A stretch of 42,568 nt of DNA from the IMG/VR virus record IMGVR_UViG_3300033050_000049, positions 1 through 42,568 of that record. One strand, 5' to 3'. This DNA comes from a virus. Below, in pieces: positions 2,037 through 42,567 of this stretch; within the stretch, counting starts at the first letter, position 1; each line of letters opens with the position of its first letter. Both the position numbers and the translations under genes were made by a program. The notes beneath the pieces were generated by a model, which was not told the origin of the DNA, made no database searches, and saw nothing but the letters and a program-made list of their open reading frames with translations.

Positions 2037-2055
2037 TTACATGCAGGGGAGTAAA

Positions 2056-2247
2056 ATGGATAAAGGTGTGAAGGTACTCACATTACGGAATTACATCATC
2101 GAGCATCATAGTGGTGTACAAACTAAATTTGCAAAAGCTAATAACATTGACCCCCCACAGGTTACACAATGGATCAACGGTCAATTTTTAGTGATCGACA
2201 ATGTGCTGTATAGCAAACGCAGAGTGTTAGCGGGCGGTCGCACATGA
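2056..2247 (+). CDS. Small Cro-like helix-turn-helix protein
   Basis: The 63-residue protein has the pattern of phage Cro/YdaS-type DNA-binding proteins. The sequence LRNYIIEHHSGVQTKFAKAN is followed by a recognition-helix-like segment, PPQVTQWINGQFL, and a short basic C-terminus (YSKRRVL). I chose the ATG at 2056 because AGGGGAG lies at 2045-2051; an ATG at 2041 is also in frame but has no such site. It is transcribed against the late unit. Its stop overlaps the start of the next gene (ATGA). It likely represses or tunes the promoter with the dyad just upstream, and perhaps the related element at 25379-25403. The DNA target is inference. Confidence 0.7.
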   Translation: MDKGVKVLTLRNYIIEHHSGVQTKFAKANNIDPPQVTQWINGQFLVIDNVLYSKRRVLAGGRT

Positions 2248-2477
2248 TTATAACTATATCACACGTGTGCTGTCGTGCATTTCATGCGGATGACAAGGTT
2301 TTCGGTGAGACAAGACTGAATTGTCTCACAAGTTCACGGGCGGGCGTCAGGGCGGCAATTGAAGCGTGGGTGAATAGCTGGGAGGGTATTGGTCACGTTG
2401 AGATCATCGCTATCAGCACGCCGTACGCGGACGATGAGCAACACTGTGATATCGACATAAATTTTAAAGAGGTATAG
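2244..2477 (+). CDS. Hypothetical 77-residue protein, partner of the Cro-like gene
   Basis: I do not recognise this family. The protein has 77 residues with three cysteines near the N-terminal half (VCCRAFH and RLNC), a helical middle (AAIEAWVNSW) and an acidic C-terminus (DDEQHCDIDINF). The ATG overlaps the stop of the helix-turn-helix gene, so the pair is coupled. The 3' end overlaps the 3' end of the convergent minus-strand gene at 2464-2829 by 14 bases. A helix-turn-helix gene followed by a small acidic gene recurs at 22985-23345, which suggests the two make a functional pair, but the sequences are only vaguely alike. Confidence 0.6.
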   Translation: MIITISHVCCRAFHADDKVFGETRLNCLTSSRAGVRAAIEAWVNSWEGIGHVEIIAISTPYADDEQHCDIDINFKEV

Positions 2478-2829: not shown

Positions 2830-3602
2830 TAAATCGGCCCATCTGTAGTTTGTGTGCCTCGATCAACTCCCGTATGTCGATGCGTTGAAAATGTTAGTCC
2901 GGCACTAGTTGACAATTCCAAAGCTGTAAGGGCTTGGCTCACATTTACAACCCCTTGTATTTCCACATCCCCGTTAATATTAAGCCCGCCCGGCGCGTCG
3001 ATTGTGACACCACCTGATGCGTTGATTGTCATACTTGCACTACCGGTAGTAAGCCTTATTGTACCATTGTCAACAATTATCACACTATCACCTACAGCGA
3101 TAACCGCATTACTATCTGTAATTGACATCCGTACGCTGCGGTCACGATTACGCAATTCGAGGCCTTGACTGAAATAGTTAGCCAGTGCAACCGGTGCTGG
3201 GTTCGCCCCCACAATTGCTAAACTGTCAGTAATGTGATGTGAGCGCGATTGCACGGGCTGCGCTGGAGACTGTACACCACTGTCATCAACCCAATTATCG
3301 ATTGACCGATCACACACGGCTAATAGTACTTGATCACCGGGGCGAACAGGCAAAGTGAGTGCAAACCCAGCGCCGTGCGCATACGGCATAACTAATGGCA
3401 CACGTACAACCTCAGGCATGTCTACAGTTATGCGTTCATCGTCAATAGTGATATAGCGTCTGATATTAGGTCGTATGACTGCCAACTGATTTACGCTGTC
3501 AAAGCTTACAACTGTACCCGGGGTATGGGTATAAGCTCTTGATATCTCACGTCGCACGGTTTCCAACAGTGCGCCTGATTCGGATTGGGCGCGTAAATCC
3601 AT
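2829..3602 (-). CDS. Baseplate central spike, gp138/gpV-like
   Basis: The 257-residue protein has an N-terminal OB-like domain (about residues 25-120) of the Gp138-N type, with the typical GTVVSFD, VPLVMPYAHG and RPGDQVLLAVCDRSID pieces. A repetitive beta-helix follows (about 165-225), and a terminal HRH motif lies at residues 241-243 within STHRHTG. In P2 gpV and phi92 gp138 an HxH motif near the tip binds an iron ion that sharpens the membrane-piercing spike. The same is likely here. The gene overlaps the hub gene upstream by one base and gp25 downstream. Confidence 0.85.
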   Translation of the reverse strand: MDLRAQSESGALLETVRREISRAYTHTPGTVVSFDSVNQLAVIRPNIRRYITIDDERITVDMPEVVRVPLVMPYAHGAGFALTLPVRPGDQVLLAVCDRSIDNWVDDSGVQSPAQPVQSRSHHITDSLAIVGANPAPVALANYFSQGLELRNRDRSVRMSITDSNAVIAVGDSVIIVDNGTIRLTTGSASMTINASGGVTIDAPGGLNINGDVEIQGVVNVSQALTALELSTSAGLTFSTHRHTGVDRGTQTTDGPI

Positions 3603-4504
3603 TACACGACTTCCAGTATTTTAAATGCGCGTGTAGTCATAACCCAATCATTATTGTATGTGGCGCCGGAAAATTCAATACTGAAAACTTTATATATACC
3701 ATCAAGCATGGGGTTACTAATACTGGTTACGCGCATTTGGTCACCTGGTCGTATTTCGGGATTTAATATTGACTCAATAGTCACACCATTATTATGTTGC
3801 ATTGCGCCAGCTAAGGTGGGGGTGATGTTAATTAGGTTTTGGTTCTCTTCGTTAATTTCGAAGACTCGATCAAATGCACGATTGTCTGAAATTGCCTGAA
3901 ACCGACCATCTTGAATAGACCACGTGAAACCATATTGACTTGCCAAATTGTCAAGTTCATTGCTTGATCGATCCAATACAGTTAGGCCACCGCTCGACAA
4001 TATACCATCAATATCAATTCGCCCCAATTCAACACCAGGCATGTCAGCAGCAATGGAACGCACTACAGTTTCCACACTTTGCCCACCTAAAAAAGTTCTG
4101 TTGGTAACACCTTTTGTGATACCCCCAAATCCATCTAATACAGTTAGTTTTGTGACATACTCCGCTCCATCCTTGGGGGTTCTCACATTTAGCACACCCC
4201 CCTGCATCAGCAAACTCAAACCCGTGTTTGCCCAACCTACACGCATTCGTACGCGTGACAAGGTGGCCCGGATGCGTTCACGGGTTTCGGCACGCATATT
4301 ATAGATGGTAATATCTGCGGCATTAGCTGATGATTGTAAGTATTTTTTAATGTTAAACTCAATAGCTAAATCTTCTCGCCCCCCATCACTAAAAATGCGC
4401 AAAGCTTCTGAACTATTTCCGCCACCCACATCATCCGCCAGCGGTCCAATGAGCAGCTCGATATTGCGTATAAATGGGTTATTGGGTGATTGCATTGAGG
4501 TCAA
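3602..4504 (-). CDS. Baseplate hub protein, gp27/gpD-like
   Basis: The 300-residue protein lies immediately before the spike gene, where contractile-tail phages encode the hub that joins the tube to the spike. It has beta-rich segments typical of hub proteins, including a long central domain (about residues 110-220, with QSVETVVRSIAADMPG) and a C-terminal ending with MRVTSISNPMLDGIYKVFS, characteristic of the gp27/gp44 group. The start overlaps the end of the upstream PKD-like gene by 26 bases. Assignment is by position plus the GDQMRVTSI/YKVFSIEF pattern. Confidence 0.75.
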   Translation of the reverse strand: MTSMQSPNNPFIRNIELLIGPLADDVGGGNSSEALRIFSDGGREDLAIEFNIKKYLQSSANAADITIYNMRAETRERIRATLSRVRMRVGWANTGLSLLMQGGVLNVRTPKDGAEYVTKLTVLDGFGGITKGVTNRTFLGGQSVETVVRSIAADMPGVELGRIDIDGILSSGGLTVLDRSSNELDNLASQYGFTWSIQDGRFQAISDNRAFDRVFEINEENQNLINITPTLAGAMQHNNGVTIESILNPEIRPGDQMRVTSISNPMLDGIYKVFSIEFSGATYNNDWVMTTRAFKILEVV

Positions 4505-4991
4505 TAGAGTAGATTAGACCTTGGTCGACGCGCGATGGTGGGAATATAAATTGTAAATTCTCACCACTAACACCGGTTAGTGGATCACCATCAATCACAT
4601 CGGTCAACGAACCACTAATCACATTAAGTACACTAGTGGGGATTGCACTTATAGTAACGCCTACGGTTACTATATTTGAAGACTGTATTGAATCTAACAC
4701 ACGGCATGAAGCTGTGAAAATACCGGGTGGGTAGAGATAATTAATAATTGGAGCAGGTGATTGTATTTCAACCGACCCGTCCCCCGGTAATACAACATAA
4801 GTTAGAACCTCATCCTCAGGGTCGGTTGATGCTGACAGGTCAAAAGTGACCGCTATGTCATTACGTGAAACCTCAACATTTGACGCGACCACACAAGTCG
4901 GCACCTGATTGACAACGTCACCGACTTGGAAAAATAATCCATCAGCGAATAACCCGTCAGCGAATAACCCATTAGCGAATAGATCAATCAT
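4479..4991 (-). CDS. PKD/Ig-like virion protein with GLFADGLF repeats
   Basis: The 170-residue protein starts with a short tandem repeat (NGLFADGLFADGLFF, residues 7-21), encoded by a 12-15 base DNA repeat at about 4935-4982. A PKD-like beta-sandwich of about 80 residues follows (DLSASTDPEDEV, then a Y-YPPGIFTASCRVLDS segment). PKD and Ig-like domains decorate many phage tails and can bind carbohydrate or host surface. It belongs to the adhesin block between the DUF6983 gene and the hub gene, and its start overlaps the preceding fibre gene by one base. Virion location is inferred from context. Confidence 0.6.
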   Translation of the reverse strand: MIDLFANGLFADGLFADGLFFQVGDVVNQVPTCVVASNVEVSRNDIAVTFDLSASTDPEDEVLTYVVLPGDGSVEIQSPAPIINYLYPPGIFTASCRVLDSIQSSNIVTVGVTISAIPTSVLNVISGSLTDVIDGDPLTGVSGENLQFIFPPSRVDQGLIYSIDLNAITQ

Positions 4992-6919
4992 TATGGGGCT
5001 GTACGAATTGGGTTAGTAATACCGTCACCCGTCACCACATTATCATTAAAAGCCTTGGGGTTACTATCGATAATTCCCGGTAATGTAAAGACCATTTGAT
5101 CAGTCTGAGCTTGTATAGTTGCAATGGCTGTAGGATCAAAACTCACATTGTCAATTGAGTATCGCGAGGTATCAACAATTGTGACCACCCCACCAGAATT
5201 ATCTTCTAAATCAAAAAAACCAGCAATCACAATTGTTCCGCCGGTGCAGTTAGCATTAACTGTAATTAACCTACCTGCGCCGTCAATGCTGACATTGTCA
5301 CCTATCTTGAGATTGAGAATTTCAACTGAACCAGCATATCGGTGCATGTTTAAATTCTTGACACCCACACCAACAAAATTTATAAAAGGGTGCGTCAACC
5401 CAGAATCAGTAGAGCGGGTGTCAATATAATCATAAGTCCCGGCATCACTCAAATTGATGGTACCTCCAATCCCACAGGCCACAAGTGAGTGTAAGCCGAG
5501 CGTATGGTCTGTGAGTCTACACCCCTCGTAACACGTTAATATCGCATTATCAGCTAGGTCATTACCCACAATTTGTGCACCGTGTATAAGTGACCCGGCC
5601 ACACTCCGGCCCCCCAGCGCAACAGTGTAATCGTGACCAAAAAACTCAAAACCACTATAATCTTGGTCGAGTGTAAAAGTAGACCCCGGCAATGAGTGCA
5701 ATAGGGTACTGTTTAGCGCGTCCATAATCACCCGCGCAGAGGTTAACACGCTAACTGGGTTATCAAAAGTACCATCATTATACAACACCGTTCCGGTATT
5801 ATTACGGTTAGTGTCAATCCACACTTGCCCACCAACATAACCGATAATTTGCTGCGATGCCACACCTTCTGCGAGCAACTCATCAACCGTCAGTGTTGCG
5901 CCGGTCAACCCAGACCCATCAAGTCGTACAAATACTAACCCGATATCATCACCGGTTCCGGTGTGCCTAGAGAGTAAATTTAGAACTCTAACTGTATTAG
6001 TATTACCCGCTTGGCCTGATAGTTCACCGTATGCATCCCAAGTTGCACCATTCCAAACTGAAAAATTCAAGGTATCGTTGCTACCATTCAATCGACCCGT
6101 AAAAGTTATTGATCTTGCGGTTCGCGAACCACCCACTGAGATTTGATAAACGATATCAATAGCACCACCAGTATCAGTAATTATATGGTCATTCCCGCCA
6201 ATAAAATGGGTGTCCACAAATGTATTGGTTTGAGTTCCGACAAAACTAACCGCATTTAGTGCGCCCCCGGTATTGTCAGCATTGACCTCAAAATTAAGCC
6301 CACCCCCGGAACCACCAACCGGAGTACCGACATTTTCAGTAGCTAGTATAACCCTAATACTATCACCAACTGCAATAACAAATGGTGTTGGGTTACTACT
6401 TAGTGTTATTTGACCCGAGCTAGCAACGTATGAAGCTAAAGAACCGATGCTGATATCCTCAGGGAAATTAGAGTTAGCTATAATAACATCACTACCCGTT
6501 GGATAGGACGCATCAAACGTACTACCATTAGTGAGTGCGACAACGGTGGGGCTTATCACTGCGGAAACCACGGTGTTTATCAATACAACACCCTGCTCTA
6601 CATTTGCCGCGGTCAATTCAAATTCGGCGGCAATTCCCACCGGGTTGAGTGCCGAAATGGTTATCGAACAGTAGGCTGTGTACTCACCCACAGTGTACCC
6701 CACGTCAGTGGGAACTAACACTTCGTATGCGCCGTTAGGGTATGCAACATTAGTTAGTAAAAATGGTGTCAGTATTGCGATAGGTGAGGTGGTTGCCGCA
6801 TCCCCTTTTCGTCGGATATAAATAAGAGGTGATGCGCCATCACCTTGGTCACCGTCAGCTGTATTTGAGGCAAATGCTAGAGCCACCACCTCACCCAATT
6901 CTCTGATTTTATCCGTCAT
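4991..6919 (-). CDS. Large tail fibre or tailspike with beta-helix
   Basis: The 642-residue protein has an N-terminal beta-rich domain (about residues 1-110) resembling baseplate-attachment domains of receptor-binding proteins. A second beta-sandwich region follows (about 205-345, with SFVGTQTNTFVD and SVWNGATWDAYG). The C-terminal part, from about residue 365, starts with VWIDTNRNNTGT and DNPVSVLTSA, a common entry to phage right-handed beta-helices. I see no obvious catalytic residues, so binding rather than cleavage is the safer reading. Start and stop both overlap neighbours, so it is part of a coupled operon. Confidence 0.65.
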   Translation of the reverse strand: MTDKIRELGEVVALAFASNTADGDQGDGASPLIYIRRKGDAATTSPIAILTPFLLTNVAYPNGAYEVLVPTDVGYTVGEYTAYCSITISALNPVGIAAEFELTAANVEQGVVLINTVVSAVISPTVVALTNGSTFDASYPTGSDVIIANSNFPEDISIGSLASYVASSGQITLSSNPTPFVIAVGDSIRVILATENVGTPVGGSGGGLNFEVNADNTGGALNAVSFVGTQTNTFVDTHFIGGNDHIITDTGGAIDIVYQISVGGSRTARSITFTGRLNGSNDTLNFSVWNGATWDAYGELSGQAGNTNTVRVLNLLSRHTGTGDDIGLVFVRLDGSGLTGATLTVDELLAEGVASQQIIGYVGGQVWIDTNRNNTGTVLYNDGTFDNPVSVLTSARVIMDALNSTLLHSLPGSTFTLDQDYSGFEFFGHDYTVALGGRSVAGSLIHGAQIVGNDLADNAILTCYEGCRLTDHTLGLHSLVACGIGGTINLSDAGTYDYIDTRSTDSGLTHPFINFVGVGVKNLNMHRYAGSVEILNLKIGDNVSIDGAGRLITVNANCTGGTIVIAGFFDLEDNSGGVVTIVDTSRYSIDNVSFDPTAIATIQAQTDQMVFTLPGIIDSNPKAFNDNVVTGDGITNPIRTAP

Positions 6920-8058
6920 AGTGTCTGAGCCTTAAATAAATTATGCCCCATTATATTAGTTTTAAATAATGGAGTCGAGCGGGTTATGGGTGGGGCAACC
7001 CCGGAAAATTCGAATGCACCAATTGTACCGATTGTATCCCGATTGGTATTTAACATGTCCACCATTAAGTCAACGCGCGGGTCGGTGGCTGACGGGATGG
7101 TAGAACCGTCTTGTGTAATAGTAAATGCGTTTTCACCAGCGATTGAAAAGTCCTGATTATCAAATTCAGTGAAAAACACGTTAGCGCCAGAATTGGGTTC
7201 CACACTTACACCACTGACATTACCAAAACTACCTGCTCCGAATTTACCCACTGCTGATGGGTCACCGCTAACATTACCACCGCCTGTAAAACTGACAACA
7301 CCCGGGGATGCATCCGGGCCTGAAGTGCGCCAATCCAACGCAGATGGGTCAACCGCATTCATAGCTAATTGTGTTGATCTTGTATCTTGATTAATAACTA
7401 TATTATTGTAAGCATTGACAATTGCAGTTGAGGCGTTAGTCAACGATACGGAAAACCCACCGTTCAGGGTTTCGGTCGGAAATCGCCCGCAGTTAACGAT
7501 CGTGTTGTGATACAGGTTATATTGATAAGTGTTACTGAGTGAAAACCGCTGAATGTGAACCCCTGCGCGAGCAAACCCTACTATAGCACAATTAACTATT
7601 GTCGCGGTTTGAGACGTTACACCCCCAAAATAAAACCCATCTTGACCGCTTTGATTATTCGCAGCACGGATAAAACATTGCTGCGCTAAAAAGTCACCAG
7701 CGTTGAGTCTAAATGCCTCATCTGAGTCGCCAGCAACTGTATCAAGTGTCACTGCTATACCCTGATACCACACAAACGCACCGTTTATGGTATTGGCGTG
7801 GCCACCAGTATTTCCCAGGATATGCGCACCTGCCCCCCCCCCAAAATCAGTTGCTGCGTTACCTGAAGTGTGGGTTATCTTTATACAGTTAGTAAATGAC
7901 TCACCGGCACGGGAAGGAATAACGAGATCACCGACGTATGTACCGGGCACTAACTGTATTTCGTAGACCTCAGTTAGAGTGGTCGGTGCTGCGTCAATAG
8001 CAGTCTGTAAATCGGTAAAGTCGGCACCACCAGCCTGATTAACAACAACAATTGTCAT
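6916..8058 (-). CDS. Right-handed beta-helix protein (adhesin or polysaccharide-binding)
   Basis: The 380-residue protein begins MTIVVVNQAGGADFTDLQ and AIDAAP, the classic opening of a pectate-lyase-like beta-helix. It continues with repeated beta-turns (for example NCAIVGFARAGVHIQR, then NNIVINQ) to about residue 300. The start at 8058 is preferred over an in-frame codon at 8091 because its ATG overlaps the stop of the CBM6 gene (TAATG), like the other junctions here. It may bind or cleave capsular polysaccharide, but no lyase motif is evident. It has no signal peptide, unlike the gene before it. Confidence 0.65.
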   Translation of the reverse strand: MTIVVVNQAGGADFTDLQTAIDAAPTTLTEVYEIQLVPGTYVGDLVIPSRAGESFTNCIKITHTSGNAATDFGGGAGAHILGNTGGHANTINGAFVWYQGIAVTLDTVAGDSDEAFRLNAGDFLAQQCFIRAANNQSGQDGFYFGGVTSQTATIVNCAIVGFARAGVHIQRFSLSNTYQYNLYHNTIVNCGRFPTETLNGGFSVSLTNASTAIVNAYNNIVINQDTRSTQLAMNAVDPSALDWRTSGPDASPGVVSFTGGGNVSGDPSAVGKFGAGSFGNVSGVSVEPNSGANVFFTEFDNQDFSIAGENAFTITQDGSTIPSATDPRVDLMVDMLNTNRDTIGTIGAFEFSGVAPPITRSTPLFKTNIMGHNLFKAQTL

Positions 8059-8831
8059 TATGAAATAGCTATAACGTTTATTGTCAACCACTGAACTGGA
8101 GTTAACTCAAACCAGTCTAATCGGATAGAACCACTATCTATAGTTAGTCGAAACGTATACCCCCCAGCGGGTAAAAAGAGCACCCCCACATCTTCAATAC
8201 CCCAAATGTCCAGCCCACCGGTGCCCAGAATACCCGTTGGTTGAGACACATAGACCTGCTGGCTGTCAATAGCTAGGCTCAAACGAAAAGGTGCACCTGG
8301 GATTTCAACCCGAGCATATCGAGCAGACACTTGATATAACCCAGAGGTCTCGACCTCAACTTCGTATTCTAACCACTCACCCTCCGCCAGTGCACTAACA
8401 CTAAACGCATTTGGTTCACCCCCCACACTTTCAATATCAACACCAAAATCATCACGGTAGACACCCCCCTGATTCGTTTCCGGTGTCGAGTCATGTGCAA
8501 CAGTGTAATCTTCAAATTCAATTCTACCCGGGACTAACTGCAAATAGGAATTTTCAATTTCTGTAGGAACCTGAGTAACCATTTCCACACAAATTACATG
8601 ACCTGTAAGTCCGCTGCTGTTTGTGTGCTGATAATAACGAAATCGACCACCACGCCCGGTTGCATGACTAAATGCACCACACGCATCACCCACATTAGTC
8701 GTGCCTATCACTGCACCGCTTACCATCGACCTTAGGGGTATGGTTTCAAATGAGCGATTAGGTGCCACCACTGCGTTAGCAGACACTAATATAGGTGATA
8801 AAATTAATAATATAAAATAAAATACTCTCAT
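8058..8831 (-). CDS. CBM6-type carbohydrate-binding protein with signal peptide
   Basis: The 257-residue protein starts with a clear Sec signal peptide (MRVFYFILLILSP, cleavage likely after ANA at residue 20). A beta-rich region with two cysteines (C51 and C81) comes next, and then, from about residue 103, a family 6 carbohydrate-binding module. The CBM6 marks are RIEFEDY, a GGVYRDDFGVDIES turn, EWLEYEV, YQVSARYA and a late LDWFEL. CBM6 domains bind beta-glucans, xylan or agar-like polymers. A signal peptide is unexpected in a tail operon: the product should be exported from the infected cell or membrane-anchored. The start overlaps the stop of the CRP-like gene (ATGA). Confidence 0.75.
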   Translation of the reverse strand: MRVFYFILLILSPILVSANAVVAPNRSFETIPLRSMVSGAVIGTTNVGDACGAFSHATGRGGRFRYYQHTNSSGLTGHVICVEMVTQVPTEIENSYLQLVPGRIEFEDYTVAHDSTPETNQGGVYRDDFGVDIESVGGEPNAFSVSALAEGEWLEYEVEVETSGLYQVSARYARVEIPGAPFRLSLAIDSQQVYVSQPTGILGTGGLDIWGIEDVGVLFLPAGGYTFRLTIDSGSIRLDWFELTPVQWLTINVIAIS

Positions 8832-9439
8832 GTGATCATCTCGTAAGTTGTGGGGTGGTATTTAACTTTTACCTTTTTAAGCCCCCCATTTTTTATAAGT
8901 ATGGCAACCGCCCCACCTACCATTTCACGACTGAGCCCGAGCGTAGTTGCTAGTGCAGTAATGCATAAAACAAAATGGCGGTCATCCGACATCGCACTCA
9001 ACCGTTGACATAACCATTTTACTTGATCATAACAATTATACGTTTTTAATCTGCTAGTAAATTCCATCTGATCTGATATAAAAGTGTGGATTTGATTTTC
9101 GTCCGGTGTGCACTTTGTCAACACTGATTTAATGATAGCACGGATGTAAAAATCTTTTGGGACAAAGACCACCCCCCCCCTTTCAACCATGCACGAACCA
9201 CCGGTTGCACCATTTAAAATTGCCGAAACTGCCCCTTTTTCGACGAAATAAGTGCCTGTTTCTAATTTTATCCCGTTTTTTTTAATCACCAGTTTACCTA
9301 GTGTACTTTTAAAATCTTGCGAGTTTGGTATTATTTTAGGTTTGATCTCTTTGAGCATACCAACCTTTCTTGTGCATAATTGCAACTGTGATATTGCGTC
9401 ATCACACATTCTTTCAACTTCGCTGTAATCTAGTTTCAT
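8828..9439 (-). CDS. CRP/FNR-like regulator embedded in the tail operon
   Basis: The 203-residue protein is about the length of a CRP/FNR regulator and shows a compatible layout. A beta-roll-like region spans about residues 48-108 (TGTYFVEKGAVSAIL, then a glycine pair and VVFVPKDFY). A long helix follows (about 112-150), and then a winged helix-turn-helix (161-189) with TTLGLSREMVGGAVAILIKN, close to the CRP recognition helix pattern SRETV. The residues that bind cAMP in CRP are not obvious, so a ligand cannot be named. ATGA overlaps on both sides couple it to tail genes. It could also be a repurposed structural protein. Confidence 0.5.
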   Translation of the reverse strand: MKLDYSEVERMCDDAISQLQLCTRKVGMLKEIKPKIIPNSQDFKSTLGKLVIKKNGIKLETGTYFVEKGAVSAILNGATGGSCMVERGGVVFVPKDFYIRAIIKSVLTKCTPDENQIHTFISDQMEFTSRLKTYNCYDQVKWLCQRLSAMSDDRHFVLCITALATTLGLSREMVGGAVAILIKNGGLKKVKVKYHPTTYEMIT

Positions 9440-10017
9440 GATAAAAATGGCTCTCCTGTAATTTCGCTCACCGAACTATTACCTGGTATTTCAACACCAA
9501 TAATGTCTGTGCTCAATATCCCAGCAGTCGGTCTGCTTATTACTATACGCGGGTTAGATGTGGATTGTGTAAATGTTTGAGTACTTATCACCACACCCCC
9601 TTGAGTTATATTTATCAAATTAACTGAAAATGTAGCTATCGGTGGTGCCAACTCACCGATATCGGTGAGAGTCACACTGAGTTCAGGGATTCGGTCGATT
9701 ATCACAACTTCAGAGTCTAAAAACTGTACAACATCTGCAACGCTGCCGAGTGTATCTGTACCCCGGTTTTCCGCGGTCATTCGAATCTGCTGAAACAGCC
9801 GAGTTAGGTGTGGGTATGCACTAATTATATTTATGCGATCTAATAAGCTTAACCCGACAATCAACACTCGACCATCACTGTCAAGAATGTCAACCAACCA
9901 TTTGCTTATTGCACTGTTAAATGAGGTACGAAACTGGTATTCTCCGACACCCTCGATAAAACTGACCGTGACTAATCGCGCCCCATCATCAGTTAACGGT
10001 ATGACTTGCAACGTCAT
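9436..10017 (-). CDS. Baseplate plug-like protein, DUF6983 type
   Basis: The 193-residue protein has an N-terminal domain of about 100 residues with the DUF6983 pattern: YQFRTSFNSAISKWLVDILD, then VLIVGLSLL. In related phages this small protein sits between the Dit-like protein and the hub. Its C-terminal half (about residues 105-193) is a beta-rich extension that I do not recognise and that is not usual for this small family. In this genome it is followed not by the hub but by the adhesin block. Confidence 0.6.
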   Translation of the reverse strand: MTLQVIPLTDDGARLVTVSFIEGVGEYQFRTSFNSAISKWLVDILDSDGRVLIVGLSLLDRINIISAYPHLTRLFQQIRMTAENRGTDTLGSVADVVQFLDSEVVIIDRIPELSVTLTDIGELAPPIATFSVNLINITQGGVVISTQTFTQSTSNPRIVISRPTAGILSTDIIGVEIPGNSSVSEITGEPFLS

Positions 10018-10569: not shown

Positions 10570-12297
10570 TTAGTTAACCACCACCGCATTAAGTCCAGGG
10601 CTATTAACCTGCTGCGATTGCGCTAGTGACAACTCACGCTTGATAATATCAGCAGTCCTACCCGGGCTAGTGGCACCGCTGACATTAATAACTATATTAG
10701 TATTGTTAACAGCGCCTTGGGTGCTACTGGGATTGCGCGCAGCTTGTGAACCGATATTACCGGTTATCGGGTTCACAGGCTCCAGACCAATAGTGTCGGT
10801 TGACTCGGCAGACAATAGAAAATCAGGTATGGGTAGACTATCAATTAAGCCTTGCCATTTTGTAGTCACAAGTGTTACGGCGCGATCAATCATCGCACTC
10901 AGTGCGTCAAGCCCTATAATATCGGTTATCGGTTTGACAGCCCCCAGACCAACCGCACCGGTTGACTCGTTACCCGATGTGTCAGTAGATAATAGAAAGT
11001 CAGGTATGGGCAAACCATCAATTAAGCTTTGCCATTTTGTAGCCACGATTGTTACGGCACGATCAATCATCGCACCGAGTGCATCAAGCCCTATAATTTT
11101 AGACCAATTAAGTTTCGGTAGATTGAGTAAATATTCACCCATCGACTTAAGTTTATCAATAATTTTATCAATGCTAAATTTTACAAGCGCAGCCAACAAT
11201 ATAAAGTACCACTTCATTAGTGCAATCGCTTTCCCGGTGACGCTTTCCCCGCCCCGAAAGGCAACAACCATGTCCTCAATTATCAGGATCACCGCTGTAA
11301 TAGCGGCAACTATTATCAAAAACGGAGCCGAGGCTATCAATACTTTTACGGCTATCACACCTAGAATTGTCGACAGCGCTAAAAGTGCGACAGTGACCAG
11401 TCTACTTATATTATCAACAGTAAATAAGCCATCCGTAAACCCGCTGAGATTGGGGGTTACGGACAATAGATTATCGGCAAGACTCCCCACTGTCCGTGCA
11501 AAATTCTGGAATCCAAAAACGACACCTTGAATAAAGGTGGCCAGCCCGCTTACCGTTATCTCTTTATTTGCTACCACTAATTCCGTTAGTGTGTCAACCA
11601 GTGGGGTGAGTATGGGTAATAGCGACACCGCCACGACTGTGGCCAAGCCTGTCAGTGCTGTACGCATTTTTACAAGTTGTAAATTGTAGGCAGCAGCCTG
11701 AGTCGAGTCAGCAGTGGACACAACCCCACCTAACCGTCTAGCCTCAGCACGCAGCGCTTGAATATTGCCACGTCCTTTTTGTAATAATAGAATAGTGTCT
11801 TGACCGAACCCTAATTTACTTGCCAAATCACGACCTGTAAGCGTATCAAATTTAGTTAGACCGTCTGCAACATCGAGAAATAGTTCTTCAAACCCTTTAA
11901 GATTCCCTTGTGCGTCGCTGATTGACACACCTAATCGTGCTAATTCTTCACTCGGTTGACCGAGTCGTATACCGCCAACGGTCGACGCAAATGATTCAAA
12001 GTCAGACCGCAATGAACCAACCGACCCACCAGCCGCTTTGATCCCAAATTCGAACTCTTGCAGGGCTTCGAAACCCAGATCAATACTTCTTGCAAATTTA
12101 GCACCACTATCAACTTGCCCAGCAACTTTATCAGTAAATGCAACAACGGCAACTGTGATTACAGTTAATGCTGCACCGGCGGCCAGTGCGATATTTTTGA
12201 CTTTGTCGAGACCCGCTGACAACTTGCGAGACGTGCCATCATTACCACTATCACTCTTAAGTGTAAGCAGCGTGACTAACTCATCAACTATCGCCAT
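10570..12297 (-). CDS. Tape measure protein
   Basis: The 575-residue protein lies between the tail chaperone and the distal tail genes, the invariant place of the tape measure, which sets tail length and passes through the tube during DNA ejection. It begins with a helical domain followed by a hydrophobic segment (IALAAGAALTVITVAVVAF, about residues 31-49). More membrane-like segments lie at about 220-235, 300-345 and 365-380. The C-terminal third contains two tandem copies of a 59-residue module (see the repeat entry). The protein is short for a tape measure, implying a tail of modest length. Its ATG lies inside the 3' end of the frameshifted chaperone extension. Confidence 0.85.
   Translation of the reverse strand: MAIVDELVTLLTLKSDSGNDGTSRKLSAGLDKVKNIALAAGAALTVITVAVVAFTDKVAGQVDSGAKFARSIDLGFEALQEFEFGIKAAGGSVGSLRSDFESFASTVGGIRLGQPSEELARLGVSISDAQGNLKGFEELFLDVADGLTKFDTLTGRDLASKLGFGQDTILLLQKGRGNIQALRAEARRLGGVVSTADSTQAAAYNLQLVKMRTALTGLATVVAVSLLPILTPLVDTLTELVVANKEITVSGLATFIQGVVFGFQNFARTVGSLADNLLSVTPNLSGFTDGLFTVDNISRLVTVALLALSTILGVIAVKVLIASAPFLIIVAAITAVILIIEDMVVAFRGGESVTGKAIALMKWYFILLAALVKFSIDKIIDKLKSMGEYLLNLPKLNWSKIIGLDALGAMIDRAVTIVATKWQSLIDGLPIPDFLLSTDTSGNESTGAVGLGAVKPITDIIGLDALSAMIDRAVTLVTTKWQGLIDSLPIPDFLLSAESTDTIGLEPVNPITGNIGSQAARNPSSTQGAVNNTNIVINVSGATSPGRTADIIKRELSLAQSQQVNSPGLNAVVVN
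10803..11097 (-). repeat. Tandem 177-base repeat inside the tape measure gene
   Basis: Two copies of a module, ending at 10920 and 11097 on the plus strand, are offset by exactly 177 bases (59 codons). Each encodes IIGLDAL-AMIDRAVT, TKWQ and PIPDFLLS with scattered substitutions. The copies have drifted at many synonymous sites, so the duplication is not very recent. In-frame tandem duplication of a tape measure segment would be expected to lengthen the tail slightly. Confidence 0.85.
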
Positions 12298-22088: not shown

Positions 22089-22140
22089 CTTGCAATTATA
22101 TATCATCTAAAAAGCAATGACAAACCGAGTGTTGATAGTT

Positions 22141-22214
22141 AATTATAGTTTCTATTTTTAGAGACAAGTGTTATACTGCACTCACACACTAGCAAACAAT
22201 AGAGAGATTAAATT
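22141..22214 (+). promoter_or_regulatory. Duplicated leader/promoter, copy 1
   Basis: The leader contains GTTTCTA-TTTT-TAGAGAC (an imperfect 7-base hairpin), followed by an extended -10, TGTTATACT, and the shared string CACACACTAGCAAACAATAG before the start codon. A near-identical leader lies at 22563-22638. A bound regulator at the hairpin word could control both genes. Promoter function is inferred. Confidence 0.55.
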
Positions 22215-22568
22215 ATGCAAATATCAATCGAAAATGGTGTATACAACGAAAGACGTTACAGTAAACCTTGGATTGCTAAAGTTGACTTTATAGATAATAA
22301 AAAAGGTAATTTTAGTTTTGGTGATTTTATAGGTGAGCACGGTTATGGGGGTGTTTGCGAACTCGAAAATATTAAACAGGGTGATATCATTGCAGTTGGA
22401 CAAAAAGATTTCCGCAAACCCGGTAATTCGACACCTCGTTTTTATATTGTCGAAGCATCAATTGATATCACAATCGCAGAGGGGGCATGCGAAAATGACT
22501 ACGAAGAGCAAGGATTAAGAGGAGTGTCAAAACGGGAAGTGTACAGACATGCTAAAAAGTCTAATTAA
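22215..22568 (+). CDS. Hypothetical 117-residue early protein (cassette A)
   Basis: I do not recognise this family. The protein is beta-rich: VYNERRYSKPWIAKVDF at the N-terminus, then a GDFIGEHGYGGV turn and GDIIAVGQKDFR in the middle. It ends HAKKSN, the same six residues that end the next gene's product. That shared end is encoded by a 22-base repeat which also holds the first codons of the helix-turn-helix gene in the second copy. The gene looks like the occupant of an exchangeable slot. Confidence 0.6.
   Translation: MQISIENGVYNERRYSKPWIAKVDFIDNKKGNFSFGDFIGEHGYGGVCELENIKQGDIIAVGQKDFRKPGNSTPRFYIVEASIDITIAEGACENDYEEQGLRGVSKREVYRHAKKSN
22547..22568 (+). repeat. 22-base 3' cassette tag, copy 1 (copy 2 at 22983-23004)
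   Basis: Identical 22-base strings beginning ACATGCTAAAAAG and ending with the TAA stop close both cassette genes. In copy 2 the internal ATG opens the helix-turn-helix gene (MLKSLI...). In copy 1 the same reading gives MLKSLI and then a stop soon after, a relic start. This marks the duplication boundary. Confidence 0.85.
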
Positions 22569-22638
22569 TAGTTTCTATTTTTAGAAACGAGTGTTATGCT
22601 GAACCCACACACTAGCAAACAATAGAGAGATTAAGATT
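22563..22638 (+). promoter_or_regulatory. Duplicated leader/promoter, copy 2
   Basis: This second copy has a perfect hairpin word, GTTTCTA-TTTT-TAGAAAC (22571-22588), a weaker extended -10 (TGTTATGCT), and the same CACACACTAGCAAACAATAG leader with AGAGAG as the ribosome-binding region. Apart from a few substitutions and one inserted base it matches 22141-22214. Confidence 0.55.
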
Positions 22639-23004
22639 ATGAATACAGTAATAATAGATCAAAGCAAAAAGATTTTATTAAACATAAAAGAAGTGTTTAT
22701 CCACTTTGATAACTCAGCCATCAGCGATGATGCACAATCAACAATAAAGGTTCTGCTGGGGGTGGTTGTGAATGAAAAGGCGGACAAAGGTCAAGATGTG
22801 TCGGGTCTATTAGACTCAGTTTGCCGCCTGAACACTCAGCTTCAACCATCTTTCACTGACCAACTGCAACGAAGTGTAAAGCTTTATTCTAAAGAACAGA
22901 CAGACGAAACCGCAGCAATTTGCGGTCTGATTACTGCGAGAATAAACACTTTAATAATGATACTGGCAGCTAGACTTGAAACACATGCTAAAAAGTCTAA
23001 TTAA
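22639..23004 (+). CDS. Hypothetical 121-residue helical protein (cassette B)
   Basis: The protein is almost all helical, with no recognised motif. Segments include KILLNIKEVFIHFDNSA, LLDSVCRLNTQLQPSF and ICGLITARINTLIMILAARL. It ends HAKKSN like cassette A, because the 3' tag is shared. Its 3' end overlaps the helix-turn-helix gene by 20 bases. The unrelated body between conserved ends suggests gene exchange at this position. Confidence 0.6.
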   Translation: MNTVIIDQSKKILLNIKEVFIHFDNSAISDDAQSTIKVLLGVVVNEKADKGQDVSGLLDSVCRLNTQLQPSFTDQLQRSVKLYSKEQTDETAAICGLITARINTLIMILAARLETHAKKSN

Positions 23005-25378: not shown

Positions 25379-25403
25379 TAGTGCGGTACTATACTTATAA
25401 GGT
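25379..25403 (+). promoter_or_regulatory. Promoter with dyad operator, copy 2
   Basis: The element matches 2012-2036 at 22 of 25 positions, including the -10-like TATACT (25390-25395) and the following TTATAAGGT. The dyad is one base short of perfect here (TGTAGT against ACTATA). A good -35 at the right distance is not evident; TTTACA is 20 bases upstream. It stands 64 bases before the small gene at 25467 and is likely the first early promoter. Confidence 0.55.
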
Positions 25404-25466
25404 CGACAAACAAGTCGGCTACCGTGCCTCGGGGCTGGGGCACAAAATCTCAAAAGGAGATATGAA

Positions 25467-25724
25467 ATGACTATACAAGTAATCACACAAGAAGGGTACA
25501 CATGCGATCTATTTGGTGCGCAAGTTATACATAGAGACGATAGTCTTTTAATTATCGCTGTACCAGAAGAGTTCTTGCCAAGCGACGATGACAAAAAATT
25601 CTGGACAGAAGAGCCTGTTTCTGTAGCGCTTACCGAAGATTTGACATTTGGAGTCAACGCTTGGTATTACACTCACAAATTGGGTGCAGTTGCAATAATT
25701 AAATATTACGTTGCCATAGAATAA
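25467..25724 (+). CDS. Hypothetical 85-residue early leader protein
   Basis: This is the first gene of the plus-strand unit, with a strong AGGAG ribosome-binding site about 7 bases before the ATG. The product has no family I recognise. It has a beta-rich start (MTIQVITQEGYTCDLFGAQV) and a middle with PSDDDKKFWTEEP. A terminator-like hairpin follows 72 bases after the stop, so it may be expressed alone, early and strongly. Confidence 0.65.
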   Translation: MTIQVITQEGYTCDLFGAQVIHRDDSLLIIAVPEEFLPSDDDKKFWTEEPVSVALTEDLTFGVNAWYYTHKLGAVAIIKYYVAIE

Positions 25725-39984: not shown

Positions 39985-41186
39985 TAGAAAAATTCCTCAA
40001 TTAGAATAAAGCCGTCGCCACCACCACCACCGGCCCTTGCTGGGCCTGAAGCCCCACTGCCACCGCCACCGAGCACACCATCCATATCAGCCCCCGCGAT
40101 CTGTCCAGCCAATCCACCGCGGCCGAACATTGCCGGCGAACCACCCGCACCAAATTGGATAGGAGCAGTAGTGCTACCAATACTATCTGAGCCTGACTGC
40201 CCGGGTATGTTAAAGTCACCACCTGTAGCATTGCCGCCAACGCCCCCAGAGGCAGCGGTAGTCAAAAAAGGGTTGCCGATTCCACCACCGCCACCATTGC
40301 CAAATATCACTGACCCACCATCAATTGCAATTGACGAAAACCCCCCGGGCCCACCGTTAGTTCCAGTGTTATTACCACCACCACCCCCAGCACCAACGGT
40401 AAGGCTGAACACAGTTTCAGTCGGGTCGGAACTCACAATTATGCTCACCCCACCGGCACCACCACCCCCTGCAAGACCGCCTGCAATAGCCCCATCAAGC
40501 CCCGTCCCACCACCGCCGGCACCACCACCGACTACTGTAAATTTAACTGATCTGACGGATGTTGGACGAGTATACACAGTGTTTGTCACTACCGTGATTA
40601 AATTAACCGCAACCGGGCTCGAACTAACTGCATTTAGTCTAGCCTGATCCGCTGCACTGATCACACCCGCTTGAGTTATTGATGCCGATGGAATTGTAGC
40701 GTTAGAGCCTGTACTCGATTGTATTGTAACTTCAGTGCTTGTGCGTGCTACAGTCAGATCGGTGGTGCCTACACCGGCACCACCGCCAATAAAGTCAACA
40801 AGTGTCCTCCAGTGCGACGGAACATTTGCGCCATTTGCCGGGTCGCGCACACCATCAACTGCGCCCGGCCCGCTTAACTCAGTTGACACATAAAACGTGC
40901 CATCCGAACCCCTTACTACACCGTTGAGCGTTGTGTAATCGACGGTTTCCGACCAGCCCAAAATGCCCGATCGGTCGACCTCAGTTGCTAACTCATATAA
41001 GATATGCAAGACTTCATTGATATCTGCGCTGTCAGCGAGGGTATCAAAACCAAAACCACTTAACAGGGTTGCTGGGGTCAATGCCGTATTGCGATACGCT
41101 ACACCCTGTGCGGGGATAGTGGGTATAGTAGTGTTGGCATCATCGCCAAAAATTGCAGGTATGTTATTATCACGAGTGCTGGCCAT
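39984..41186 (-). CDS. Tail fibre with glycine-rich receptor-binding end
   Basis: The 400-residue protein starts with a baseplate-attachment region (about residues 1-140, with GWSETVDYTTLNGVVRG and GSDGTFYVS). A short linker is followed, from about residue 210, by a glycine-rich domain of repeated GGGAGG-type turns, of the kind found at adhesin tips (polyglycine-II-like packing). Its hydrophobic end reads GFILIEEFF. Such tips often choose the receptor. No separate chaperone gene follows. The first 16 bases of the window are the repeated start of this gene. Confidence 0.7.
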   Translation of the reverse strand: MASTRDNNIPAIFGDDANTTIPTIPAQGVAYRNTALTPATLLSGFGFDTLADSADINEVLHILYELATEVDRSGILGWSETVDYTTLNGVVRGSDGTFYVSTELSGPGAVDGVRDPANGANVPSHWRTLVDFIGGGAGVGTTDLTVARTSTEVTIQSSTGSNATIPSASITQAGVISAADQARLNAVSSSPVAVNLITVVTNTVYTRPTSVRSVKFTVVGGGAGGGGTGLDGAIAGGLAGGGGAGGVSIIVSSDPTETVFSLTVGAGGGGGNNTGTNGGPGGFSSIAIDGGSVIFGNGGGGGIGNPFLTTAASGGVGGNATGGDFNIPGQSGSDSIGSTTAPIQFGAGGSPAMFGRGGLAGQIAGADMDGVLGGGGSGASGPARAGGGGGDGFILIEEFF

Positions 41187-41902
41187 TATGTAAACTCACT
41201 TAGTTGTTGTGTTGTAAACCCCACGCTAAAACGTGAGGTGTCAAAATGTCGCTGGTCACCATCAAATCCAAACCCGCCCGCAGGTGAGGACAATATTTTA
41301 GTTATTCGCGCAGTGACTGGTAACGGCAAAATAGTGCGCTGCTCAATAAAACCATCAGACTCGTCAATCAATAAAGTGGTTAGTTGACCGAGTGTGATAT
41401 CAGTTAGTACTGTCATGCACAATTCCATCGGCCCCACTCTCACAAAGCTGACGTCAAGGCCATTAAATAATTGTACAAACCTTATTAACTCAGGTGTGCT
41501 TGCCGGATGTACGTGGTTTTTAAAAATCTTTGAAAATATTAACCGTCGAAATTCACTATCCAGTGCGGGCAAATCCCCGAATAATGCTGCACCGGTTGAG
41601 AACCACGAGGTGGAATCAAAACGCCCACGATTATCAAACCCAAAAAATACCCGCTGCTCGGCATTTAATGAAATTCGTGGTTGGCCTACAATTCGACCCC
41701 ACACATCCAAATTTATGTCAGCAGCATTATCAAGCTGGAAAACATCTAACGCATTAATAACTGCGTTATGTAACTCTTGCTCTTCTTCGATCACCGCGGA
41801 AAGAAAGCAATTAACTAAAAATGAACGACTGAATTGAAACATCAGACGTGAACCACCTTGGGCTACTAAGTCTTTGTTAAGCGGTGTGACATCAACTAAC
41901 AT
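41186..41902 (-). CDS. DUF2612 baseplate protein, second variant
   Basis: This is a full-length 238-residue copy of the protein at 16-732, with about 7 substitutions (for example TPWFSDG against TSWFSTG) and otherwise identical length and overlaps. Purifying selection appears to act on both copies. A true phage would not normally need two, so the copies probably represent the same locus. Confidence 0.85.
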   Translation of the reverse strand: MLVDVTPLNKDLVAQGGSRLMFQFSRSFLVNCFLSAVIEEEQELHNAVINALDVFQLDNAADINLDVWGRIVGQPRISLNAEQRVFFGFDNRGRFDSTSWFSTGAALFGDLPALDSEFRRLIFSKIFKNHVHPASTPELIRFVQLFNGLDVSFVRVGPMELCMTVLTDITLGQLTTLLIDESDGFIEQRTILPLPVTARITKILSSPAGGFGFDGDQRHFDTSRFSVGFTTQQLSEFT

Positions 41903-42447
41903 TTATAAAGATGCGACTACTATCGAGCGCTGCAATCTGATCAAAATTAATAGGTAGGTCTGAACTATTAATAGTTAGTGAAGACAACCCAACCATTATA
42001 TTAGTGACTATATGACCGGGGATGCTGTTAAGGGGTGTGTATAACCTCGACACATTTATATTATCCCCGGGTAAGAATCCAGTCTGTCTAAAGCCTGTTG
42101 TCACACCTAGCGTAGCAGCACCATTTTGAGCATACACAAGTATTGCCTCGATTATACGGTCTACACCGTCTGCACCAAATTGACGCATGTCATTAATTGT
42201 GAGGTTGATTGCAATAAATACGGGTACTGGGGTGGGTCTAATCCAACGCACTTGATTATCAATACCCTGTCTGTCGGTTATCACGCGCGCGGTATTACCA
42301 AAATACCCAACACCTGTGGCCGTCCGTAGAAATAAAGTTTCAGCGATCAACTGGTCGTCACCACCTTGCAACACCGCCGCAATTGATTTTCCGGGTATCC
42401 CACGCGCGTCCGTAGTGAACGTGCTATTGACCAGCAGTCTCACAAAT
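41892..42447 (-). pseudogene. Baseplate J gene, truncated at the chimeric junction
   Basis: Only the C-terminal 185 or so residues are present (from the VRLLVN segment onward), with about 12 changes from the left copy. The reading frame breaks at 42447, where the upstream part is replaced by unrelated DNA in another frame. A short TTG-initiated reading is not believable as a gene. Confidence 0.8.
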
Positions 42448-42567
42448 CTCAACGTTATCTGCCCCTGCTTTTTCTAGCTGGGCTTTTACTAGTTCAGCAC
42501 ACTTTCTAACTTCCCCTTTAAAAGCAGGATCAGCACTAACAGATGGTATTTTCAATAAATCAATGAG
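42436..42567 (-). pseudogene. Fragment of a bacterial M20-type peptidase gene
   Basis: Translated on the minus strand, the last 130 bases give LIDLLKIPSVSADPAFKG, then EVRKCAELVKAQLEKAG and VEICET. That is the N-terminal pattern of M20 family dipeptidases (IPSVSADP followed by a helix and CET). It runs off the window at its 5' end. The frame then enters phage DNA and stops after a few codons. It is probably host or contaminating DNA joined to the phage. Confidence 0.7.

Follow-up and report, generated by a model that had tools for sequence, protein, structure and literature searches.

Three consecutive genes in a 42.6 kb virus record, coding for a CRP/FNR-fold regulator, a CBM protein predicted to be exported and a fibre-like protein, very probably form a portable unit, judged from their recurrence as a block in other phages. 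The explanation that we prefer as a whole, with a probability of about 0.5, is that this portable trio would combine a virion adhesin, an exported CBM protein on the envelope of the infected cell and a regulator blind to cAMP. On its minus strand, the window, that is, the whole stretch of 42,568 nucleotides that was analyzed, has a contractile-tail module. Its genes for Dit, plug, hub, spike and wedge follow the order of Pam3/E217-type contractile tail baseplates, from which the window differs in that five further genes separate plug and hub. The block and its flanks are as follows:

9436-10017, minus strand: baseplate plug, Pam3 gp18-like (Pfam Pam3_gp18, PF22479, E 1e-6, residues 5-86); left flank of the cassette
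8828-9439, minus strand: cassette gene 1, predicted CRP/FNR-fold regulator, 203 aa (AlphaFold model with Foldseek against PDB; Crp HTH Pfam domains)
8058-8831, minus strand: cassette gene 2, CBM protein, predicted to be exported, 257 aa (Pfam; PDB CBM6 profile; signal-type N-terminus)
6916-8058, minus strand: cassette gene 3, fibre-like protein, 380 aa (alignment and segment identity matrix)
4991-6919, minus strand: fib642, presumed tail or fibre protein, fixed in the lineage and outside the portable unit
4479-4991, minus strand: PKD-like protein with N-terminal LFADG repeats, fixed in the lineage and outside the portable unit
3602-4504, minus strand: baseplate hub, E217 gp41-like (Pfam E217_GP41, PF22759, E 3.7e-10; phrog_196, E 2e-53); right flank

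The initial annotation had described five genes with short overlaps, and all five open reading frames were found on the minus strand at 4479-9439. The measured overlaps are 4 bp for plug/CRP, 4 bp for CRP/CBM, 1 bp for CBM/fibre, 4 bp for fibre/fib642, 1 bp for fib642/PKD and about 26 bp for PKD/hub, the hub having a TTG start. The fibre gene was taken to begin at the ATG at 8058 (MTIVVVNQAGG..., 380 aa), and the upstream GTG at 8091 was dropped, because the former start is nearly invariant in the alignment and common to all copies, which have MTIVVVNQAGGADF in common from that ATG. Compared with plugs of roughly 103-119 aa in cultured relatives, the plug at 9436-10017 has about 90 extra C-terminal aa (residues 100-193). 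Within the phage collection the hub had 397 matches, all of them distant, each below 60% identity. As had also been proposed, plug and hub are neighbors in related phages: they adjoin directly in three of the inspected regions, those of Vibrio phage 1.052.A, Psychrobacter pOW20-A and Burkholderia BgManors32, and no comparable block precedes the hub in the inspected regions of Proteus ZX7, Rosemountvirus KE25 and Jedunavirus JD001. In a distant viral contig (L007), the spacing between Dit and hub is only about 0.4 kb.

Several repeats were observed elsewhere in the window. Its two ends (1-1280 and 41171-42451, baseplate wedge and DUF2612 genes) form a direct repeat of 93% identity; probably, then, two strain variants are joined in a record that closes on itself, and the true genome would be about 41 kb. 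An 84-bp direct repeat (90%) at 22137-22217 and 22558-22641 precedes two consecutive small plus-strand genes, 22215-22568 and 22639-23004, and is possibly duplicated regulatory DNA. The tape measure gene, whose product has 575 aa compared with 518 aa in L004, contains an internal 111-bp repeat (88%) at 10810-10920 and 10987-11097.

The CRP-like, CBM and fibre genes were found in the same order on contigs G001 (L025/L026), G002 (L023/L028) and G003 (L024/L029), and in all five copies the stop of the CBM gene meets the start of the fibre gene (gap of 0 or -1). When whole contigs were compared (for G003, the 20 kb locus), the window had nothing but the trio in common with G002 and G003, and with G001 it shared, besides the trio, a single small gene at 25401-25721 (49-57% identity), the only non-cassette sequence in common. 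The trio is also all that G003 shares with G001 or with G002, while G001 and G002 have in common the trio, a lysis-region module and another gene. The same block in otherwise unrelated phages, the mark of a shared host-recognition module, is thus what was found for the trio. Its context varies, as it follows a tail gene in G002, precedes head-tail genes in G003 and comes after the early region in G001. Integrases and repressor-like genes are present in G001 and G002, which by their gene content are temperate phages. Just upstream of the G003 cassette (L029, 6614-9595) is a surface-modification type gene for a 993-aa glycosyltransferase-methyltransferase fusion.

Every CRP-bearing contig with enough flank has an adjoining CBM gene. 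The arrangement of G002 was seen again in L027, from an independent data set (3300004833), and in L030 as far as the contig end within the CRP-like gene. Whether the search was made with the CRP, the CBM or the fibre alignment, the contigs returned were largely the same, an indication that the list is near complete for the collection at that sensitivity. No member of the trio was found in 50,697 phage records and, as regards the host, the CRP and fibre alignments gave no relative among the contigs of 84,980 species genomes; the trio proteins had no convincing match in PHROGs. The trio contains no mobility gene, so that its transfer would have taken place by recombination.

The initial annotation had read all five genes as one self-contained cassette for surface interaction, including a regulator, within a structural operon. 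A unit does move, but its boundary encloses three genes: the first three recur together elsewhere, while fib642 and the PKD-like gene were found only in the window lineage. There they occupy the same place in each close relative covering that stretch, and for them the cassette idea fails. A mobile unit of five genes was accordingly ruled out, as these two are fixed in the lineage and absent from the other phages with the trio; they look like lineage-specific tail genes. Among the close relatives, the viral contigs L002, L004 and L009 contain the block whole or as far as the contig end, contigs L003, L005 and L006 begin within fib642, and PKD adjoins the hub throughout L002-L006. The fib642 gene is present in all of them, including L022, which is without the CRP-like and CBM genes. 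Its product had no Pfam or PHROG match, and the PKD-like protein matched PKD_4 at E 3e-4, under the curated cut-off. The LFADG repeats span residues 1-22 of the latter protein and resemble an LF..GHNLFK motif at the C-terminus of the cassette fibre, possibly a docking element common to both.

Contig L022 has 89-92% identity with the window on either side of an altered stretch from which the CRP-like and CBM genes are missing. After the plug come ATGAAACTAGATTACAGTGAG, equivalent to the opening 7 codons of the CRP-like gene, a short stretch, ATGGGGATATCAAAA, which is the end of the CBM gene with a mutated stop, and then the fibre ATG. A mini-ORF of 17 codons was left, still overlapping the fibre start. 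Because remnants of both genes are present, the pair appears to have been deleted from an ancestor that had both and, since the fibre was kept, to be dispensable, on the basis of this one contig. Between the window and L004, the structural genes have 76-97% protein identity, with the exception of fib400 (68%); the CRP-like and CBM proteins have 51% and 61%. The dN/dS ratio was about 0.1 or less for the CRP-like gene, the fibre and other tail genes, so these frames are under purifying selection; for the CBM gene it could not be estimated, synonymous sites being saturated. Contig L009 is 100% L004-like up to window position 9654 and 100% window-like from 9657 on, with the switch inside the plug gene. 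Two origins are conceivable for this contig, a recent crossover in register and an artefact of template switching; it was set aside as evidence for recent cassette exchange, as a chimera could also give this pattern.

Two explanations would do away with a portable unit altogether. Five ordinary lineage-specific tail genes inherited vertically would account well for fib642 and PKD, which are in every covering close relative. For the trio this is contradicted by its presence in three contigs otherwise nearly unrelated to the window and by a fibre body that is swapped across phages, which makes the explanation very improbable. Chimeric contigs could likewise have produced an apparent sharing, and the switch in L009 is what in-vitro template switching might give. 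We consider this still less credible, since the other copies differ by 20-70% at the protein level and therefore are no chimeras of known contigs, the arrangement of G002 came up again in L027 and, up to the contig end, in L030, and the scar in L022 has diverged flanks and a mutated stop.

The first cassette protein had been called CRP-like, and its predicted structure agrees. The AlphaFold model (pLDDT 77) has, in the right order, a beta-roll effector domain, a long dimerization helix and a C-terminal winged HTH, and CRP/FNR structures were all of the 50 best PDB matches listed (E about 1e-8 to 5e-7, TM about 0.3-0.6). The window copy alone had no match in Pfam, while Crp HTH domains matched three of the five family members (the window, L004, L026, L028 and L029; best HTH_Crp_2, E 1e-4) and the family profile matched the Vfr HTH at E 0.004 in a comparison with Vfr/CRP HTH domains. 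The recognition helix keeps an SRE motif, with invariant Arg-Glu, and the protein probably binds DNA. In cAMP-binding members of the CRP/FNR family, the cyclic-nucleotide pocket contains a GE...RSA phosphate-binding motif. This canonical pocket motif is absent from the five aligned copies, which have GDVIF[VI]P-GFY-HA in its place. The cassette protein thus shares the predicted fold and the SRE-motif HTH with CRP/FNR regulators, from which it differs in being phage-borne and without GE...RSA. Only one viral protein in BFVD matched the model at E < 0.001; among predicted viral structures, full-length CRP folds are rare.

A CRP/FNR regulon was considered and dropped. The window contains 34 loose CRP sites, compared with 24 expected, and its sole perfect canonical site, TGTGAAGGTACTCACA at 2067-2082, is a palindrome in the coding region where the 2041 gene starts; L002/L003 have it and L004 lacks it. 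The two small genes at 2041-2477 (plus strand), one for a Cro/YdaS-like HTH protein and one for a 77-aa protein, lie inside the minus-strand baseplate operon and are a second accessory insertion; they are kept in L004 (71% and 52% identity), and a palindrome of the TATAGT...ACTATA type precedes them.

The second protein consists of a signal peptide (about 1-20), a small domain of 65 residues (21-85) with two invariant Cys, and a CBM6/35 domain (about 98-245). Its annotation as a CBM6 protein with a signal peptide was confirmed, as it matched CBM_35_2 (E 2e-8, 34.6 bits compared with a curated cut-off of 23) and CBM_6 (E 3.5e-7, 31 compared with 28.9 bits) and the PDB CBM6 profile at E 1e-23, and the Pfam match was seen in all five copies. 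All five also have a hydrophobic signal-type N-terminus, even though those residues are only 10-25% identical, and we predict with high confidence that the protein is exported. The conserved signal speaks for a site of action of gene 2 outside the cytoplasm in which its product is made, and it sets the protein apart from an ordinary virion part assembled in the cytoplasm and thus from the fibres with which it had been grouped. No known relative of the small domain was found, the best PDB match being T4 internal protein I (E 0.13, not significant), and an SH3-like reading had no support in the searches. The window copy has Leu and Arg at the positions of the Trp of TGxW and the Asn of NLDWF, both kept in the other four copies; its binding of sugar may therefore be altered or missing. 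The predicted structure was put aside (pLDDT 45).

The fibre is mosaic. Its residues 1-100 are 73-97% identical among all copies, and its body falls into three types, found in the window and L004, in L022, L026 and L029 (78-91% identity across different phages), and in L028. The C-terminal 22 residues have 86-91% identity in the window lineage and differ from those of other copies, and in L022 the body type of another phage is joined to the lineage C-terminus (91% window-like). At the DNA level, a stretch of 1070 bp that begins with the last bases of the CBM gene is 85% identical between L022 and L024, and one of 705 bp spanning the CBM-fibre junction is 79% identical between L004 and L025. 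The CBM domain of L004 is 80% identical to that of L026 and 66% to that of the window, while the fibre bodies of L004 and L026 differ; CBM and fibre types have therefore been shuffled independently. Co-variation of the two, expected with a shared receptor, was not seen in the segment identity matrix, and a common glycan target is not supported. That the two genes are coupled in all five copies, and that L022 has an analogous overlap, speaks for a fibre dependent on translation from upstream. Neither the fibre, including its shared part, nor fib642 matched a protein family in the window; both are putatively beta-rich, and the cassette fibre is probably a right-handed beta-helix. Its position, its modularity and the C-terminal Ig-like/fn3 domains of the L028 copy make it likely to be a virion protein.

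Taken together, the trio would be exchanged by recombination between phages with a common host pool. The fibre would act as a swappable virion adhesin, its C-terminus attaching to the particle of its own phage and its body contacting the host surface. The CBM protein would be made in the infected cell, exported by its signal peptide and bound to the envelope glycan of that cell, where it would most likely make sibling phages less prone to re-adsorb, and progeny less prone to bind debris, as T5 Llp does. For an exported protein that binds glycans and has its gene next to that of an adhesin, such receptor masking is the most parsimonious role, and we keep it, tentatively, at about one in three because CBM and fibre types do not co-vary. 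The CRP-fold protein would be a DNA-binding regulator without the usual cAMP response that sets the timing of cassette expression or else changes genes for the host surface. The bolder version, in which a module mobile among the phages of one habitat has a cAMP-blind CRP homologue that reprograms surface genes of the infected cell while the exported sugar binder and the swappable fibre manage receptor access, seems doubtful.

Other roles for the trio deserve consideration. CBM domains are known from virion proteins, and both genes lie in the tail operon with translational coupling in every copy, so the CBM protein and the fibre might both decorate the virion, the former joining the particle at or after lysis and the CRP-like gene being an unrelated passenger. 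This is unlikely, as the signal peptide, kept in every copy despite sequence turnover, would remove the protein from the cytoplasm in which tails are assembled; moreover, L022 lost the regulator and the CBM gene together and kept the fibre. Somewhat less unlikely is a conversion (moron-type) cassette, in which the regulator and the exported CBM protein would alter the surface, biofilm or gene expression of the infected or lysogenic host to the benefit of the phage, the fibre being linked only through its conserved 5' end acting as a recombination site. The temperate nature of G001 and G002 favors it, as do the uncoupled CBM and fibre types, the glycosyltransferase-methyltransferase fusion near the G003 trio and the position of the G001 trio, behind a promoter-like/terminator-like stretch after the early region instead of a tail gene. 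The window phage, however, has no integrase among the genes scanned, and its lineage has the trio within the tail operon, where no promoter clearly belonging to the trio was seen; promoter-like matches are frequent throughout.

The members of the portable trio are also marker families for viruses of the subseafloor aquifer. The source data sets of L002, L025/L026, L030 and L024/L029 have a deep-sea habitat in common, which makes a shared host pool plausible, and phages of this habitat seem to exchange the trio as a unit for handling the host surface. If the functions hold, one transferable unit would join the regulation of host genes to the masking and the binding of receptors, and would allow the question of why these genes stay together to be tested directly.

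For the CBM protein, we tentatively propose, by analogy, a function like that of T5 Llp, an exported exclusion protein whose gene is beside the receptor-binding gene (PMC9586334). The T5 Llp and Cor lipoproteins, which mediate superinfection exclusion, are exported and encoded beside a receptor-binding gene (PMC9586334), as the cassette protein would be if its predicted export and the putative role of the fibre hold. Llp, however, is a small lipoprotein acting on FhuA, whereas the cassette protein has 257 aa and no evident lipobox. A parallel for the exchange itself is the host-recognition module common to the distantly related Alteromonas phages A5 and V22 (PMC10579305), a receptor-binding block that phages of different families with one host group share by recombination, as would be the case for the trio. 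That module consists of a tail fibre and a chaperone, whereas the trio joins the fibre to an exported CBM protein and a CRP-fold regulator, with no chaperone seen, and differs also in that its portable fibre end is the N-terminus. The trio would be an instance of the adhesin exchange already known between phages, set apart by the CRP/FNR-fold regulator and the predicted exported glycan-binding protein that travel along.
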